The notes under the pieces were generated by a model. It made no database searches, had not been told where the DNA came from, and saw only the letters and a list, made by a program, of their open reading frames with translations. A program made the position numbers and the translations under genes. A stretch of DNA of 44,745 bases from an uncultured Deferribacterales bacterium (GTDB lineage Bacteria; Chrysiogenota; Deferribacteres; Deferribacterales; Mucispirillaceae), in contig CANTXF010000011.1 of NCBI GenBank assembly GCA_947853665.1, forward strand, positions 1-44,745, written 5' to 3'. Below, piece by piece: positions 3,032 to 24,692 of the stretch. Positions within the stretch are counted from its first letter, which is position 1; each line of letters begins with the position of its first letter.

Positions 3032-3119
3032 AGCTCTTTCAGTATATTGCGGGTAAACCTTTTTGCAGAAAGCGGCTTTCGTTAAGAGGGTTTACAGCGC
3101 GTTTTATTTCGGAGACTTT

Positions 3120-3851
3120 ATGTTTGACCGCCCGGCTTACAGATATATCAACGGTTCTCTTGAGGAAGCCGTAATAACGTCGGATATTTCCATGGAAGAG
3201 CTTAAAGCAGTTTCCTCCCAGGTCCTGCTGGCGGAGAGGAACGTGGTTTCCTTTATTTCCGGCGGCCCTTTTCTCAATATGCTTTTATGGGGGGAGAAGG
3301 GTAGCGGCAAGTCCACCCTTTTAAGGCTGCTTGCGGCCAAATACGGCGGCAGCGGCCTTGTTACCGTGGAATTTATCGACGACAGACCGGCGGGCGTATA
3401 CGGCCTTTACGGGATGATAAGGGCCTGCCCGGATAAGAAGTTCATACTTTATTTCGACGATATTTCCTTTAATGAGAGCGACGATTCTTACAGAAGGTTC
3501 AAATCCGCCGTTGAGGGCGGCCTTGAGGAAAAGCCCGGAAACGTCCTTTTCGCGGCCACTTCCAACAAGCGCCACCTTGTTTCCGATAAGGGCGGCGATA
3601 CGGGCGACATATACGACAGGGACGAAATGAACGAGCGCACCTCCCTTCAGGCCCGTTTCGGCCTTTCCATAGGGTTCTATCCGCTTAATAAGGACAATTA
3701 TATTAAAATATGCGCCATGTATCTTGACAAATACGGCGTCGAGGCCGTGCCCGGCTGGGAAAAGGCCGCCGAGGCCTACGCCATAGACAGGGGCGGCAGA
3801 AGCGGGCGCCTTGCGAAGCAGTTTGCCGCCTACACGGCGATAACGCGTTAA
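3120..3851 (+). CDS. DUF815 family AAA-type ATPase
   Basis: The protein of 243 residues has a Walker A loop (G-E-K-G-S-G-K-S-T, about residues 58-66) and a Walker B strand (I-L-Y-F-D-D-I) at about 110. It matches the DUF815 P-loop ATPases, a broadly distributed family of unknown cellular role related to AAA+ proteins. The pattern A-T-S-N-K-R-H-L about 40 residues after Walker B resembles the sensor-1 region and is typical of the family. The start was placed at ATG 3120 because GGAG lies 5 bases upstream of it; an upstream in-frame TTG at 3063 has no such site. It is the first gene of a plus-strand cluster with a small protein and a predicted outer-membrane protein, and the function of that cluster is not evident. 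Confidence 0.85.
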   Translation: MFDRPAYRYINGSLEEAVITSDISMEELKAVSSQVLLAERNVVSFISGGPFLNMLLWGEKGSGKSTLLRLLAAKYGGSGLVTVEFIDDRPAGVYGLYGMIRACPDKKFILYFDDISFNESDDSYRRFKSAVEGGLEEKPGNVLFAATSNKRHLVSDKGGDTGDIYDRDEMNERTSLQARFGLSIGFYPLNKDNYIKICAMYLDKYGVEAVPGWEKAAEAYAIDRGGRSGRLAKQFAAYTAITR

Positions 3852-17396: not shown

Positions 17397-18704
17397 ATGG
17401 ATATAAAAAACAGTAAAGAGATTATCGCCGGGTTTGTCGAGCGGTATAATTTTTCTCACATTTTTACTGACAGCGGGCTGCCTTTGGGAAAAGAGGCGGC
17501 CCCTCTTCGCTTAAGCGCCGGGGAGGCTGTGGAGTTTCTGCTTTCCTCGGCTCTTACGGGCAGCAAGGTCATCGGCTTTTTTGACAGGCTCCCGGCGGTT
17601 TCCGTAAAACGCTCCTTAAGAGGAGAGTGTATTTTCGTAAGCCGCAGGCTGCCTGAAAAAATAGACGTTCCCACTCTGTTCTGCCGCAGGTCCGGCGATA
17701 TCGCTTCTTATCTGGTTCTCGCCCTCAAAACTGCGGCCGACTGCAAGCTGCCCGTATCCGTCGTTATATCCGACGACGCTTTAAATAATTACGCGGACCC
17801 GGTGAAAACCGTATGCGACCTTGCCCGTACTTCGCCTTACCTTCATCCGGATACCTTTAAAAACCTTTTCGACGGGGCCTCTTTCGCTTCCTGCGCCGCC
17901 GTTGCGGAAAGCGCCTTCTCATCCGCTCTCGGCAGCGGTGAAACGGAGGGCGGCGTCCTTTCCTTTTCTGATAACGATCTGCCCTTTTTCCCTTATCTTC
18001 TGCCCGGCATCCTTCCGGAAAACGCGGAAAATTTAAAAGGGAAAACTATTAAGATCCCTGCCGGCGAGGCGCTGGCCGTAGTTTCCATGCTTAATAACAG
18101 CTACGCTCTGGCTGTCTCCCCGGAAAGCGCCGGGGAAGAAAAATGGCCGGAGACTGCGGATTTTCTTTGCCCGGGGTGCCCTTTTGTAAATATTTTTGCG
18201 AGGATCAGGGATAAGGAGGCGGTGTTTTTTACCGATATAGAATGTGAAGGCGCACTTAATTTCTTCCCTCTGAACCGGGTTTCTATCGAATCCTATATGG
18301 GGCTGCTGTCGGAAAGCCTTAACGTGAAAACCGTGTTCATAGGCCGCGCTTCCGGCTATAAGCCCTGTTACGACGGCCTTCTTAAAAACGGCCGCGTTAT
18401 ATTTTTAAACGACTGCGGCCTTTCGGGAATCAATATATGCGCTTCCGTAAAGCATCCCAAAAAAATCACGGGAGAAAAGAACGCTCTCTTTCCCTACGGC
18501 TGCGGAAATATTAAAAGCTATTCCAAAGTCAGGATAAATCCTAAAAAATGCCGCTGCATAAAGGACGGAGTGCCTCCCGCCTGCGCTGAAGCCGTAAAAT
18601 GCCCGGCCATATACGTTAAAAACGACGTAGCGGCCATAGACGGCAATATGTGCACAGGGTGCCTTGCCTGCAAAACCGCGTGCCCTTTCGGAGCTATATC
18701 ATGA
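17397..18704 (+). CDS. Degenerate IorA-like (indolepyruvate ferredoxin oxidoreductase alpha) protein
   Basis: The 435-residue protein follows the IorA layout but is about 150-200 residues short of it. Residues 40-130 align in pattern with the IorA N-terminal domain. C258-P-G-C-P matches the C-P-G-C-P-H motif before the thiamine-diphosphate (TPP) domain. T279-D-I-E-C then stands in the place of G-D-I-G-C, and F314-I-G-R stands where IorA has the G-D-S motif that binds TPP and magnesium. The C-terminus keeps one complete 4Fe-4S motif (C419, C422, C425, C429-P); the preceding cluster motif is reduced to scattered cysteines (C385, C387, C396, C402). Ordinary 2-oxoacid oxidation is therefore unlikely. 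The reading frame is intact and overlaps the IorB-like gene by 4 bases, which argues that it is still used. The role is unknown. Confidence 0.75.
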   Translation: MDIKNSKEIIAGFVERYNFSHIFTDSGLPLGKEAAPLRLSAGEAVEFLLSSALTGSKVIGFFDRLPAVSVKRSLRGECIFVSRRLPEKIDVPTLFCRRSGDIASYLVLALKTAADCKLPVSVVISDDALNNYADPVKTVCDLARTSPYLHPDTFKNLFDGASFASCAAVAESAFSSALGSGETEGGVLSFSDNDLPFFPYLLPGILPENAENLKGKTIKIPAGEALAVVSMLNNSYALAVSPESAGEEKWPETADFLCPGCPFVNIFARIRDKEAVFFTDIECEGALNFFPLNRVSIESYMGLLSESLNVKTVFIGRASGYKPCYDGLLKNGRVIFLNDCGLSGINICASVKHPKKITGEKNALFPYGCGNIKSYSKVRINPKKCRCIKDGVPPACAEAVKCPAIYVKNDVAAIDGNMCTGCLACKTACPFGAIS

Positions 18705-19171
18705 ATTACCGTATTATGACGGGCGGATACAGGTTCAAAACCTTTGATACATGCGTTAAGCTGCTTATATACAGCGCAAAAGAATCCGATTATATTATCA
18801 GCGTGCGCGGCCGCGCCGGTTTGTCGCCCGCATCGCCCAGTCTGCGCAGCGTGCTTCTTACCGGCAGCTCGAAAAAGACGTATAACGGCATAACCCTCGA
18901 TTTCGACGGAATTTTTGGAAACGACAGCGACGGCATAATATTAAACCCGGAAATACTGGGCCTGGACGCGGAGCCGTCGGCCTGCCACTATTGGGGTATG
19001 CTCGGCGCTCTGTGCAAGGTGATAAGCGACGTGTCTCCCGCTTACGTTACCGGGTACCTTCTTGAAAAAAATATGAAAAAGGAGCTGGAAATATTTACGA
19101 AATTTTCAAGCCAGCTTCCTTTTGCCCTTCAGGTGGCCGTAAACGAATCCATGAAAGATACGGCGGATTAG
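18701..19171 (+). CDS. Degenerate IorB-like (oxidoreductase gamma/beta domain) protein
   Basis: The 156-residue product overlaps the IorA-like gene by ATGA and is clearly its partner. The start M-N-Y-R-I-M-T-G-G matches the opening strand and glycine turn of IorB/POR-gamma domains, and S-V-R-G-R-A-G-L-S-P-A-S-P-S-L-R-S-V matches the region where IorB reads V-H-G-M-A-Q-R-G-G-S-V. H-Y-W-G-M-L-G-A-L matches the late helix. The glycine-rich G-V-G-G-Q-G loop is replaced by G-Y-R-F-K-T, and the protein is about 35 residues shorter than usual. It probably retains the fold and the contact with its partner but not the normal chemistry. The assignment rests on pattern matching by eye and needs a profile search. 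Confidence 0.6.
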   Translation: MNYRIMTGGYRFKTFDTCVKLLIYSAKESDYIISVRGRAGLSPASPSLRSVLLTGSSKKTYNGITLDFDGIFGNDSDGIILNPEILGLDAEPSACHYWGMLGALCKVISDVSPAYVTGYLLEKNMKKELEIFTKFSSQLPFALQVAVNESMKDTAD

Positions 19172-19185
19172 CTTATCCGCCTTTT
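19162..19185 (+). terminator. First terminator after the iorAB-like genes
   Basis: GGCGGAT and ATCCGCC form a 7-bp stem that includes the stop codon region, followed by TTTTGTCTTTT. Confidence 0.75.
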
Positions 19186-19204: not shown

Positions 19205-19243
19205 CGGGGCGGCTTTCGATAAAGCAGCCCCGAGCTTTTTCTT
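19205..19243 (+). terminator. Second terminator after the iorAB-like genes
   Basis: CGGGGC..GCTTT pairs with AAAGC..GCCCCG (11 pairs, one mismatch, 4-base loop), followed by GAGCTTTTTCTT. Together with the preceding hairpin it forms a tandem terminator. Confidence 0.75.
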
Positions 19244-20603: not shown

Positions 20604-21626
20604 CTATTTGTCCGCGGTAAGGCGGCCCTTTCCTGCGGCCGCTTCTCCTATTATCCGGGCCGCCGGGTATCCTGATTCTTTAAGCTCTGAAAGCAGGGCG
20701 TCCGCGTCTTCGGCGGACACGCCTATAAGAAGGCCGCCGCAGGTCTGGGGATCGAAAACAAGGCTCGTTTCTTCCTTTGATACGCGGCTTTCATAGCCGT
20801 CTCCAGCAAATTGCAGATTATTATACGCTCCCGCCGGAACCAGCCCCATTTTTGAATACTCCAGAGAGCCGGGCAAAAGGGGAATTTCAGAAAAATTTAT
20901 CGTTATATCCGTGCCGGAAGCCTTAGCCATTTCCAGACCGTGCCCGCCGAGACCGAACCCGGTAACGTCCGTGCAGGAGGACACGTCGTATTTTTTCATT
21001 ATTGCGGAGGCTTTGCCGTTTGATGTAAGCAGTGATTCCGTCATGGAGCGAGTTTCGCTCTCCGAAGCGAAAGCTGCCTTTATAGCCGTGGATATTATGC
21101 CGGTTCCTACGGGCTTTGTGAGTATGAGCCTGTCTTTCGGCCTCAGGAGGGAGTTTTTATATATCCTTTCTCCCTCTATAACGCCCGTAACCGCAAAGCC
21201 CAGGCGCACCTCGTCGCCCGAAAGCGTATGCCCGCCGCACAGCACGCACCCGTATGACGACAGTTCGTCGGCCGCTCCCTGTATCATAAGGCCTGCGGCC
21301 TCGCTTCCTATGGCGCAGGGATACATCATCACGGAAAGGGCTGTCAGCGGCCTGCCGCCCATGGCGTAAACGTCGCTTACGGCGTTCAGCGCCGCTATCC
21401 TGCCGAAGGTTTCCGGATCGTCCACTATGGGGCCTATAACGTCCACCGTCTGCACCAGCAGCGTATCGCCGTGCCTGAATACAGCGGCATCGTCTCCCGT
21501 CTCAAAACCCACGATAAGGTTCCGGCAGGGAGGCACGCGCACTTTAGAAAGGGCTTCCTGCAAGTCTCCCGGGCTTGCCTTTGCGGCTCACCCCGCGGAG
21601 CGGGAATATTGGGTCAGTTTTATCAC
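20604..21626 (-). CDS. selD: Selenophosphate synthetase containing selenocysteine (UGA at codon 13)
   Basis: SelD uses ATP to make selenophosphate, the selenium donor for selenocysteine and selenouridine. Read from GTG 21626 the frame gives I-K-L-T-Q-Y-S-R-S-A-G-U-A-A-K-A-S-P-G-D-L, where U is an in-frame TGA at 21588-21590. This is the SelD active-site segment: Sec13 lies at the place of the catalytic Cys/Sec, and Lys16 follows three residues on, as in other SelD proteins. The rest (G-D-D-A-A-V, D-V-I-G-P-I-V-D-D-P, C-G-G-H-T, D-V-T-G-F-G-L-G-G-H) is typical, and the total of 340 residues is normal. A frame that stops at the TGA would start at TTG 21563 and lack the catalytic residue. GTG overlaps the aminotransferase stop (GTGA), with AAGGA 11 bases upstream. 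A stem-loop follows the UGA. Confidence 0.92.
21548..21582 (-). promoter_or_regulatory. Candidate bacterial SECIS hairpin in selD
   Basis: Starting 5 bases after the UGA, AAAGG pairs with CCUUU (outer) and GCAAG with CUUGC (inner), giving an apical loop of CCCGGGAGA. Position and G-rich loop fit a bacterial SECIS element, which recruits SelB inside the coding region. The pairing was found by eye; no folding energy was computed. Confidence 0.55.
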
Positions 21627-22927
21627 AGGTCTTTGCATCCTTTATATATAAGCCCGAACATATCCTCGATGTCCTTTTCCTCCACGGAGGAGAACGCCAC
21701 CCGGATGTCCGTGCCGTTGGTGCTTATTACGCCCACCCCGTATTTATCCAGAAGGTGCAGGCGCAGCTTTTCGGATTCCACTCTGGCGAGCCTTATGCAC
21801 ATAAAATATCCCGAGTTAAAGGGATAGGCCGTAAACTCGTCGTTATAGCGGCCGGAGGAGAGGACCGCTTTTACTTTTTCGCAGCGTTTTTTTATAACTT
21901 CGTTGCAGGCCGCTCTCTGGGCGTAAAAGTCCGGATTGCGGAGGCTCTTTAAAACTGCGGATTGGGAAACGTGGGGCCCGTTGGATATGGTGGCCCTTAT
22001 AATGCCCGCAACTTTCGTTTCGAGGGCGGAAAACATCGCGGACTGATCCCCCGGCCCGGTAGCGCCGAAAGTTATGAACCCTACGCGGAAGCCCCAGGCA
22101 AATTCCTCTTTAGTGGCTCCGTCCAGCTTTACGGCAAGCAGGTTGGCGCTGCGCCCCGTAAGCATGGTAAAGGCCGATTCCTTAAAACATTCATCCCCGA
22201 AAAAGAGGCCGAAATAGGCGTCGTCCGCCACGGCCACTATTTTTACGCCGCTTTCGGCAATTTCCGTAAGGCCGTTAGCTATGGCGTTCATTTCCTCCGG
22301 CGTGGGAGTGTATCCCGTGGGATTATTGGGAAAGTTGAGCACGACTATTACTTTGTTATGGGCTTTTCCGCATTCCCTTACCTTTTCGAGCAGGCCCCCG
22401 GCGTTAAAGCCGCCTTCCGGCGTAAAGGTGGAATATGTAACTATCTCCGCCCCTCTGCGCAGGGCGAAAGTCATGCGGTAGTTGCCCCAGAATTTATCCG
22501 GCATTACGACGTAATCGTCCGTATCAACGAACATATCCGCCGTTATGCTAAGTCCGTGGGTAAGGGCGTTCGTAACGATGGGCAGGCTTGTCTGCCTGCT
22601 TTCCAGAAGCGGGTTGTCCTTTATCATTTTTTCTTTCCACGCTTTTCTTAAATCCGGCAGGCCGGAGGAAGGAGCGTAGGGAAAAAGCTCCGAAGGCTTG
22701 AAGTCTTTAAGGCTTTCATACATACAGTCCAGATACATCGGCCCGGCGTCCGTAGTGGCTATGCCTATGGTCGCGTTATACTTCCGGGCTTTTTCTTTGG
22801 CTTCGGCTCCCTGGGTGAGTATGCCTTTCGGCATATAGAGTTCCCTGCCGAGGTTCGAAAGCATATCCAGCACCGACAGATTGACGCCGGCAATCTGCTC
22901 GTTAAGGGTTTTTGCCAATGGGTTCAT
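21623..22927 (-). CDS. Class I/II PLP-dependent aminotransferase
   Basis: The 434-residue protein has the fold-type I aminotransferase pattern: Y-A-P-S-S-G-L-P-D-L-R near residue 90, N-F-P-N-N-P-T-G-Y in the middle, A-D-D-A-Y-F-G-L-F-F, the cofactor lysine in K-L-D-G-A-T-K-E, and G-F-R-V-G-F after it. The substrate cannot be read from the sequence, but the long N-terminal segment and the D-G-A-T-K-E-E lysine region place it with aspartate/aromatic-type enzymes. ATG 22927 has AAGGTG 6 bases upstream; an in-frame TTG at 22945 is less likely. It is the first gene before selD, which overlaps its stop. Its own promoter is at 22961-22989. Confidence 0.9.
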   Translation of the reverse strand: MNPLAKTLNEQIAGVNLSVLDMLSNLGRELYMPKGILTQGAEAKEKARKYNATIGIATTDAGPMYLDCMYESLKDFKPSELFPYAPSSGLPDLRKAWKEKMIKDNPLLESRQTSLPIVTNALTHGLSITADMFVDTDDYVVMPDKFWGNYRMTFALRRGAEIVTYSTFTPEGGFNAGGLLEKVRECGKAHNKVIVVLNFPNNPTGYTPTPEEMNAIANGLTEIAESGVKIVAVADDAYFGLFFGDECFKESAFTMLTGRSANLLAVKLDGATKEEFAWGFRVGFITFGATGPGDQSAMFSALETKVAGIIRATISNGPHVSQSAVLKSLRNPDFYAQRAACNEVIKKRCEKVKAVLSSGRYNDEFTAYPFNSGYFMCIRLARVESEKLRLHLLDKYGVGVISTNGTDIRVAFSSVEEKDIEDMFGLIYKGCKDL

Positions 22928-23002: not shown

Positions 23003-23938
23003 TTATGAAACGGGGCCGGGGTTTACGCCCAGCAGACCGTCTATGGCCCGGAAAAAGGCATCCTTTTCCGATATTTCTATTTCCATTTTAACGTATCCGA
23101 ATATTTCCCTATATTTTTCCGGCAGCTTTACGAAATCTTTTTCCGTTGTCAGAAAAAAATCCGCCCCTCCGGCCGAAGCCTTTTTTATAAGCGCTTCAAG
23201 CGTTTTTTCCGCCGGGGCGTAATGGTCTCTGAAACCTTTGAAGGCCGTTATTTTTATCCCTGCCGAGGAAAGGCCGTTGCGGAAAGCGTTATTGGAAGCC
23301 ACTGCGGAAAAGGCTCCCGCCGCCGTTCCCTTCAAATCTTCAATCTTTACGGTTCCCTGGGGAAACACTACTTTGTCCGTTACCGTTCTGCTGAAAAAAA
23401 CCGGTTTGCTATCCGCGTATTTCTTTGCCCTTTCGGGTATTCTGCTGCCGGAAGCCCTGGTAAAGACTATTATATCCGCCCGGCTTATGGCGGAGGGCGT
23501 TTCCCTGATATAGCCGAAAGGAAAGGGCAGGCCCGTGGAAACCGGGTTTTCGTAATCCAGAAGAAGCACGTCCGCGTCTCTTTTGAGGGCCCTGTGCTGA
23601 AAGCCGTCGTCTAGGACGGCCAGAGTGGAGCCGAAATTTTCCTGAGCGTAAAGCAGGGATTCGCCCCTGTTTTTCCCCGTGATTACCGCGGCTCCCGGGC
23701 AGTTAAGGGCCATCATATAGGGTTCGTCCGCCGCCATGGGGGGCTTTTGAAGAACGCTCTTTCCGTCGGAGATAACGTTCATGCCGTACCCCAGCTTTCC
23801 TTTATAGCCAAGGGAGAGGATAACGGGCTTCTCTCCACGTTTCAGGTATTCCCCGGTTATTTCTATTGTGTGGGGCGTTTTCCCGGCGCCTCCGAGAGCG
23901 ATGTTGCCCACGGATATTACTTTAGCTTTCTTTTTCAT
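23003..23938 (-). CDS. lpxK: Tetraacyldisaccharide 4'-kinase
   Basis: LpxK phosphorylates the lipid A disaccharide at the inner membrane. The P-loop V-G-N-I-A-L-G-G-A-G-K-T-P lies at residues 10-22, and D-D-G-F-Q-H-R-A-L-K-R-D-A-D-V-L-L-L-D and F-R-D-H-Y-A-P-A are typical family motifs. From ATG 23938, which has GGAGG 7 bases upstream, the protein is 311 residues. It begins almost at the P-loop, so the N-terminal membrane-anchoring helix and about 35 residues seen in most LpxK proteins are absent. The upstream frame codes only for the overlapping end of the glycosyltransferase gene, by 17 bases. It is the last gene of msbA-GT9-GT2-lpxK. Confidence 0.92.
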   Translation of the reverse strand: MKKKAKVISVGNIALGGAGKTPHTIEITGEYLKRGEKPVILSLGYKGKLGYGMNVISDGKSVLQKPPMAADEPYMMALNCPGAAVITGKNRGESLLYAQENFGSTLAVLDDGFQHRALKRDADVLLLDYENPVSTGLPFPFGYIRETPSAISRADIIVFTRASGSRIPERAKKYADSKPVFFSRTVTDKVVFPQGTVKIEDLKGTAAGAFSAVASNNAFRNGLSSAGIKITAFKGFRDHYAPAEKTLEALIKKASAGGADFFLTTEKDFVKLPEKYREIFGYVKMEIEISEKDAFFRAIDGLLGVNPGPVS

Positions 23939-24692
23939 CTTCGCGCCTCCGCATATCCCATAAAAACGCGTATTTGAGGAAGGAATACATATACGCGCTT
24001 GAAGCGGCCACAAGGCCGGGCACTCCGTCCAGCACGGCCAGATTAAGCACATACAGCTTAAAAAAAGCGAAGCAGGGGGAAAATATCATTTTTATCAGGG
24101 ACGGCTTTTTGCCCCGTCTGTAATAATCGGCGGCGGAAAGCTCCGCGTATTTTACGGTTTTTGCCATGTGGTCTGCAATTCCCCTGTAAGATCTGTGTAT
24201 CATGGGGTTTTTAAACCGTTTTACCTTGCCTTTTACTTTAAGGGCTTCGTGAACCAGCTCGCCCTCCCATCTGGGCGAGGCGGAGCGTTTTGCGAGCCTG
24301 AGCCTGTTGTCCGGCTGCCAGGAGCGTTTAAGCGTGCGGCCCAGGTATCTTGTGCGCCTGTTTATTATATAGCCGTCCGCCTGCGGGCTTTTAATGGCCG
24401 CTTTTATTTCTTCCGCCAGCTCAGGGGTCAGCTCCTCGTCGCAGTCGAGGCAGAGTATCCACTCTCCCGAACATTTTTCAAGGGAGGAGTTTTTCTGGGC
24501 GGCAAAGCCTTTCCACGCTTCTTCATAGACTTTCGCCCCGTAGGAGAGGGCGATTTCCCTGGTTTCGTCGGCAGAGCCGGAATCCACCAGCACTATTTCT
24601 CCCGCTATGTCCTTCACGCTTTCTAGAGTATGCCTTATTCTGTCCGCTTCGTTAAGGGATATCAGAGATACTGAAAGGGCAGGCCGCGCCAT
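23922..24692 (-). CDS. Family 2 glycosyltransferase, WaaE/KdtX-like
   Basis: The 256-residue protein starts with the GT-A nucleotide-sugar fold: L-S-V-S-L-I-S-L-N-E-A-D-R-I, L-V-D-S-G-S-A-D-E-T, and the metal-binding region C-L-D-C-D-E-E-L-T. The block G-R-T-L-K-R-S-W-Q-P-D-N-R-L-R-L and E-G-E-L-V-H-E resemble the lipooligosaccharide core transferases of the WaaE type. A hydrophobic C-terminal stretch (about 210-248) may associate with the membrane. ATG 24692 has AAGGA 10 bases upstream; an in-frame ATG at 24710 overlaps the GT9 gene. Its end overlaps lpxK by 17 bases. The exact sugar is unknown. Confidence 0.88.
   Translation of the reverse strand: MARPALSVSLISLNEADRIRHTLESVKDIAGEIVLVDSGSADETREIALSYGAKVYEEAWKGFAAQKNSSLEKCSGEWILCLDCDEELTPELAEEIKAAIKSPQADGYIINRRTRYLGRTLKRSWQPDNRLRLAKRSASPRWEGELVHEALKVKGKVKRFKNPMIHRSYRGIADHMAKTVKYAELSAADYYRRGKKPSLIKMIFSPCFAFFKLYVLNLAVLDGVPGLVAASSAYMYSFLKYAFLWDMRRREDEKES

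Follow-up and report, generated by a model that had tools for sequence, protein, structure and literature searches.

In the Sulfolobus OFOR, Mg is bound by a Gly-Asp-Gly motif and an Asn, a Glu contacts N1' of TPP, and a CXGC motif ligates the proximal cluster (PMC5020499). In an alignment of 16 canonical IorA proteins (alignment A3), D406 of G-D-S-T, D433-N434 of L-D-N, and E57 were invariant (16/16), and E57 was read from this alignment as the catalytic glutamate. A precedent for a POR-derived domain being reused without TPP chemistry is the alpha subunit of fungal sulphite reductase, which contains POR-like domains; its architecture is different and flavin-based, and we liken it to the proteins reported here by its general description. 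A literature search found no paper on a protein of the kind reported here; a description elsewhere is possible.

The window, i.e., the whole stretch of DNA analysed (44,745 nucleotides), belongs to a genome whose phylum we take to be, probably, Deferribacterota, which includes gut and thermophilic anaerobes. On its + strand, to which all the coordinates of the pair refer, an intact open reading frame of 435 aa (17397-18704) is predicted to encode an IorA-derived, TPP-free Fe-S protein, here called alpha. It is followed by an intact frame of 156 aa (18701-19171) for beta, the constant neighbour of alpha, which may be related to IorB. The initial annotation had described both frames as undisturbed with a 4-base overlap, and this was borne out, the overlap being ATGA. 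The double terminator that it proposed was also recovered. A terminator-like hairpin at 19162-19181 overlaps the beta stop codon and is followed by a T run, and a second one at 19205-19232 has 12-nt arms (92% complementary), a 4-nt loop, and a T-rich tail; both look like real terminators. The good promoter, however, did not hold, as 3 promoter-like sites were found versus 3.0 expected by chance. An Rfam search for RNA elements gave zero match. Elsewhere in the window, positions 3063-3851 encode a DUF815-family AAA ATPase (PF05673, E 9.6e-58). At 20604-21640 on the - strand, the selD frame extends beyond the listed start of the ORF on its upstream side, reading across an in-frame TGA, which falls at the active-site position (IKLTQYSRSAG-U-AAKASPGDL); SelD (selenophosphate synthase) of the window is probably a selenoprotein, judging from this reading of the frame, and Rfam gave no match in the selD stretch.

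In a single-sequence profile search, alpha matched TIGR03336, the IorA model, with an E value of 1.1e-7 and 30.6 bits, which is far under the curated equivalog cut-off of 650.9 bits. When the genome contigs were searched with the single alpha protein, a ferredoxin match was all that appeared. The comparison of an alignment of 26 alpha homologues (alignment A1) with alignment A3 by hhalign aligned 387 columns with a probability of 98.2% and an E value of 2.7e-14, and covered the PYR, PP, and ferredoxin parts, so that homology extends over PYR and PP. Since ferredoxin domains by themselves can yield such matches, the Fer4 part was removed and the comparison was repeated. The Fer4-free core of alpha scored 49.3 against IorA. 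By comparison, 60 shuffles gave a mean of 15.7 (SD 2.8) and at most 24.4, and the reversed profile gave 19.7. The contributors to this match were the PYR-like region (alpha residues 6-125, aligned to IorA 31-159) and the C-P-G-C region. On these profile comparisons, alpha is a shortened IorA relative. It has the PYR, PP, and putative dicluster ferredoxin parts in the same order as IorA, the four proximal-cluster cysteines, eight C-terminal cysteines by number, and the place of the first gene in a two-gene unit. Nevertheless, alpha is ~145 residues shorter than IorA, consistent with the middle region having lost a large part, its TPP/Mg site is without Asp, its catalytic Glu is not conserved, and its first ferredoxin motif is respaced. 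The initial annotation had regarded both subunits as recognisable; this stood for alpha, by its match to the IorA profile, but not for beta, whose family had no significant Pfam or NCBIfam match (26 members scanned). Structure prediction for each window protein as a single sequence was uninformative (mean pLDDT 38 and 40).

The nearly invariant columns of alpha are mostly cysteines, as expected if selection acts on cluster binding. The C-P-G-C-P motif occupies residues 258-262, and C258-P-G-C261 (18168-18179), invariant in 30 homologues and equivalent to C335 and C338 of IorA, contains the first two putative ligands of the proximal [4Fe-4S] cluster. The putative third ligand is C283 of D-I-x-C (18243-18245; C360 of D-I-G-C in IorA), and the putative fourth is C369 of P-Y-x-C-x-N (18501-18503; C507 of R-P-C in IorA), each likewise invariant in 30; the match of C369 with C507 rests on position across an hhalign gap, with the first Fer4 cysteine following 16 residues later versus 19 in IorA. 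All four proximal-cluster cysteines of IorA are accordingly present in alpha. We presume C258, C261, C283, and C369 to be the proximal-cluster ligands, partly from general knowledge of the enzyme family, beside the CXGC description for the Sulfolobus OFOR. The C-terminal dicluster ferredoxin domain (18531-18701) was delimited by a Fer4 match and by listing the cysteines. Fer4 (PF00037) scored 26.3 bits in the window alpha (E 5.9e-6), above the gathering score of 21.1, and was matched in 26/26 alpha members scanned (E up to 10). In the first ferredoxin motif, C385, C387, C396, and C402 of the window alpha are respaced as C-x-C-x8-C-x5-C-P-A, and the four cysteines are kept in 29/30 homologues, G031 being without two of the four; the second motif (C419, C422, C425, and C429) is standard and invariant. 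Counted singly, the proximal and C-terminal cysteines, C258 and C261 among them, proved invariant: C258, C261, C283, C369, C402, C419, C422, C425, and C429 occur in 30/30 and C385 in 29/30. The first ferredoxin cluster, which had been taken as lost, is thus respaced instead, and the reported survival of C-P-G-C-P and one 4Fe-4S cluster motif was correct as far as it went, with C283 and C369 now to be added.

Where canonical IorA has its G-D-S/T TPP-Mg motif, the window alpha has R317-A318-S319 (18345-18353), with no D at column 317. Among the 30 homologues, this column (D406 of IorA) holds N in 14, K in 5, R in 4, Y in 4, and S, Q, and H in one each, but never D, and the G-D-S of IorA is replaced by G-[N/K/R/Y...]-x-S family-wide. 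The loss of this motif, which had been claimed from the window sequence, was therefore upheld by 0/30 homologues with D at that position, and no homologue with an intact TPP motif was found among the 30. The position of the canonical D-N, whose Asn is a Mg ligand, is taken by N338-D339 (18408-18413); L-D-N of IorA becomes L-x-D in the alpha homologues (n=30), with D339 in 29/30. In the PYR-like domain segment (residues 1-125; 17397-17771), which was defined by the Fer4-free hhalign comparison, the catalytic-Glu column is not conserved: column 46, aligned to E57 of IorA, holds D in 17, E in 5, N in 3, Q in 2, K in 1, T in 1, and a gap in 1. Neither the TPP/Mg motif (G-D-S plus D-N) nor the catalytic Glu that mark an IorA is found in alpha. 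Compared with the Sulfolobus OFOR, alpha shares the CXGC motif, but the Gly-Asp-Gly, Asn, and Glu ligands of TPP/Mg are not kept (PMC5020499). The alignments suggest that the electron wire has been retained in alpha, where the clusters would still assemble, and that the TPP site has been erased. S319 and G302 are near-invariant (29/30 each), and D339 and S319 at the old Mg site, together with the acidic residue in the Glu column of 22/30 homologues, may point to a modified metal or cofactor site, which would speak against the reading of alpha as a pure electron carrier.

The 30 beta homologues share M-N-Y, G-S-x-K, and D-F-D together with a conserved C-terminal stretch. In the profile comparison with canonical IorB, the beta family scored 19.1 (hhalign probability 1.4%), a value reached by 3/60 shuffles and exceeded by unrelated neighbour families, which scored up to 21.6. 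The G-V-G-G-Q-G loop, reported as lost from beta, is absent from the window beta and from its homologues (0/30). Beta resembles IorB and the POR gamma domain (PF01558) in lying directly downstream of the alpha gene and in a roughly similar N-terminal register by eye. However, it is not detected by any profile, has neither G-V-G-G-Q-G nor H-G-M-x-Q-R-G-G, and is 127-157 aa long versus about 190 for IorB. Because of the downstream position and the loose end-to-end collinearity, descent of beta from IorB is plausible, and we lean somewhat towards it.

Since the active site is erased and the cluster cysteines are fixed, electron transfer or redox sensing is the simplest reading. We put at about 0.58 the probability that the pair forms a TPP-independent Fe-S complex, derived from IorA, which has taken on a new role in electron transfer or redox sensing. 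The initial annotation had likewise proposed an IorA-derived pair without TPP chemistry that is selected for another role, and the core of this proposal is supported by the lack of an intact TPP motif, the low dN/dS, and the invariant cysteines. Alpha and beta would bind each other as a self-contained two-protein complex, in which alpha is an IorA subunit shrunk by about 145 residues and devoid of its TPP/Mg site. The remaining cysteines of alpha would hold one [4Fe-4S] cluster in the proximal position and two more of ferredoxin type, and beta would be its dedicated partner, possibly a remnant of IorB. The favoured function of the complex is that of an electron-transfer module: electrons may enter near the proximal cluster from a donor protein or a small molecule, which would replace the TPP-bound 2-oxoacid, and leave via the C-terminal clusters, or they may take the reverse path. 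Alternatively, the clusters of alpha may serve as a redox sensor.

The main rival, which we consider rather unlikely, is that the protein is still a catalytic enzyme, whose old TPP cleft holds another cofactor or substrate, with S319 and D339 belonging to a newly formed site, and whose electrons are shuttled by the three clusters. The presence of S319 and D339 at the old Mg/TPP position in 29/30 homologues, and of G302 in as many, would fit such a site. However, outside the Cys, Gly, and Pro positions, near-invariant polar residues are scarce (S319, D339, N371, and K384), and a full catalytic set is not visible.

The distribution of the pair was surveyed in 51 genomes of the phylum. Full-length homologues of alpha occur within the phylum; in all, alpha was found in 34/51 and beta in 33/51, across eight families. 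The sole alpha carrier without beta (G024) holds an alpha fragment only, of about 165 residues. The pair is missing from 12/12 genomes of family f6, 3/3 genomes of family f10, and two incomplete MAGs. Outside the phylum, a full-length match was found in 0/334 genomes and in 0/386 of a second, overlapping sample; plasmids and viral contigs gave no match. The one match among phage records was rejected, since the phage-labelled contig encodes a canonical IorAB of bacterial type, complete with G-D-S and C-V-G-G-Q-G. This canonical IorA-IorB pair (MT836584.1, 2944-9768) lies in an UNVERIFIED 'Bacteriophage sp.' record from human faeces, which looks like a bacterial contig filed under phage. Wherever both genes could be seen, beta came immediately after alpha; the two were adjacent in 30/30, with an overlap of 4 bases in 27/30. 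In the alpha tree, families f2, f3, f4, f7, and f8 each formed one clade with full support, and f1 fell in two parts with no firm conflict; long branches restrict deeper inference from this tree. The pattern fits a broadly vertical inheritance of the pair with loss in f6.

No third gene is constant beside the pair, which leaves the operon without a hint of donor or acceptor. The argD-argF genes, often with argG-glyQ, lie divergently upstream of the pair in 10/21 neighbourhoods; a link to arginine biosynthesis was rejected, as the arg genes are not upstream in the other neighbourhoods, and the arrangement was taken as conserved gene order. In 11 genomes from four families (L079-L081, L083-L087, L090, L091, and L093), the pair is followed downstream by a convergent AMMECR1 gene, which was first identified by eye and subsequently through matches to Pfam PF01871 in these positions. 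AMMECR1 was rejected as a functional requirement, as the f1 genera g2 and g3 and family f9 keep the pair without it.

Most of the phylum has canonical IorA, and it is missing in sixteen carriers of the pair, i.e., 14/15 f1 genomes and 2/2 f9 genomes, whereas f6 and f10 have canonical IorA without the pair. These opposite distributions reject the pair as an accessory of canonical IorAB. The window genome itself has two canonical-type IorA proteins elsewhere (682 and 568 bits). The second of these (G000:C44:35565-37280) is under the equivalog cut-off, and its partner is a short IorB-like protein of 165 aa with an R-G-G-Q-G loop; by these features, they appear to be a divergent second IorAB. Nearly every genome of the phylum, whether or not it carries the pair, has a PFOR-sized protein (about 1200 aa) with POR domains; in those carriers that belong to genus g2 or family f9, no other POR protein remains. 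The pair could be a decoy, a modulating or a scaffolding partner of another 2-oxoacid oxidoreductase, e.g., this single-chain pyruvate oxidoreductase, for which the nearly phylum-wide presence of the PFOR-sized protein and its persistence as the sole POR protein in g2 and f9 carriers would speak. Yet it occurs equally in the f6 genomes, which have no pair, and a decoy would not need to keep all the cluster cysteines, so we regard this explanation as distinctly improbable.

A TPP enzyme that still oxidises 2-oxoacids seems more improbable again; its Mg site would be rearranged, with N in place of the former Asp and D339 in place of the former Asn. N317 in 14/30 and D339 in 29/30 would make a possible swapped ligand pair, and the acidic residues of the catalytic-Glu column would agree with it; however, the other 16 homologues have K, R, Y, S, Q, or H at column 317, and 7 have N, Q, K, or T in the Glu column, both hardly tolerable for TPP/Mg.

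The Nei-Gojobori dN/dS for close pairs was 0.11-0.25 for alpha and 0.03-0.14 for beta. Both are far below 1, contrary to the decay that a value near 1 would indicate, and the pair is under purifying selection. Alpha evolves faster than the neighbouring genes: its identity to that of G002, from another genus of the family, is 40%, compared to 79% for argG and 58% for argD. In the incomplete MAG G034 (C18, about 23231-24576), alpha is split into frames of 95 and 357 aa and is whole in the close relative G015, so the split is either an assembly error or a recent break. A decaying pseudogene pair, to which this split frame and the fast evolution of alpha might point, is already contradicted by the low dN/dS, the intact frames, the invariant cysteines, and the constant pairing across eight families.

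If the reading of the pair as a TPP-independent electron-transfer or redox-sensing complex is true, it would be a clear natural example of an oxidoreductase whose catalytic centre is gone and whose whole electron wire is still under selection. More tentatively, and with somewhat less than an even chance, the complex may be phylum-specific, a 2-oxoacid oxidoreductase that has dispensed with its catalytic cofactor and become a dedicated relay or Fe-S sensor, with a partner of possibly new fold, and needed even in reduced genomes without IorAB. For annotation, the pair should be corrected to something other than IorAB. Moreover, it is a small two-gene unit, and its removal would be expected to expose an unrecognised step of electron flow or redox sensing.
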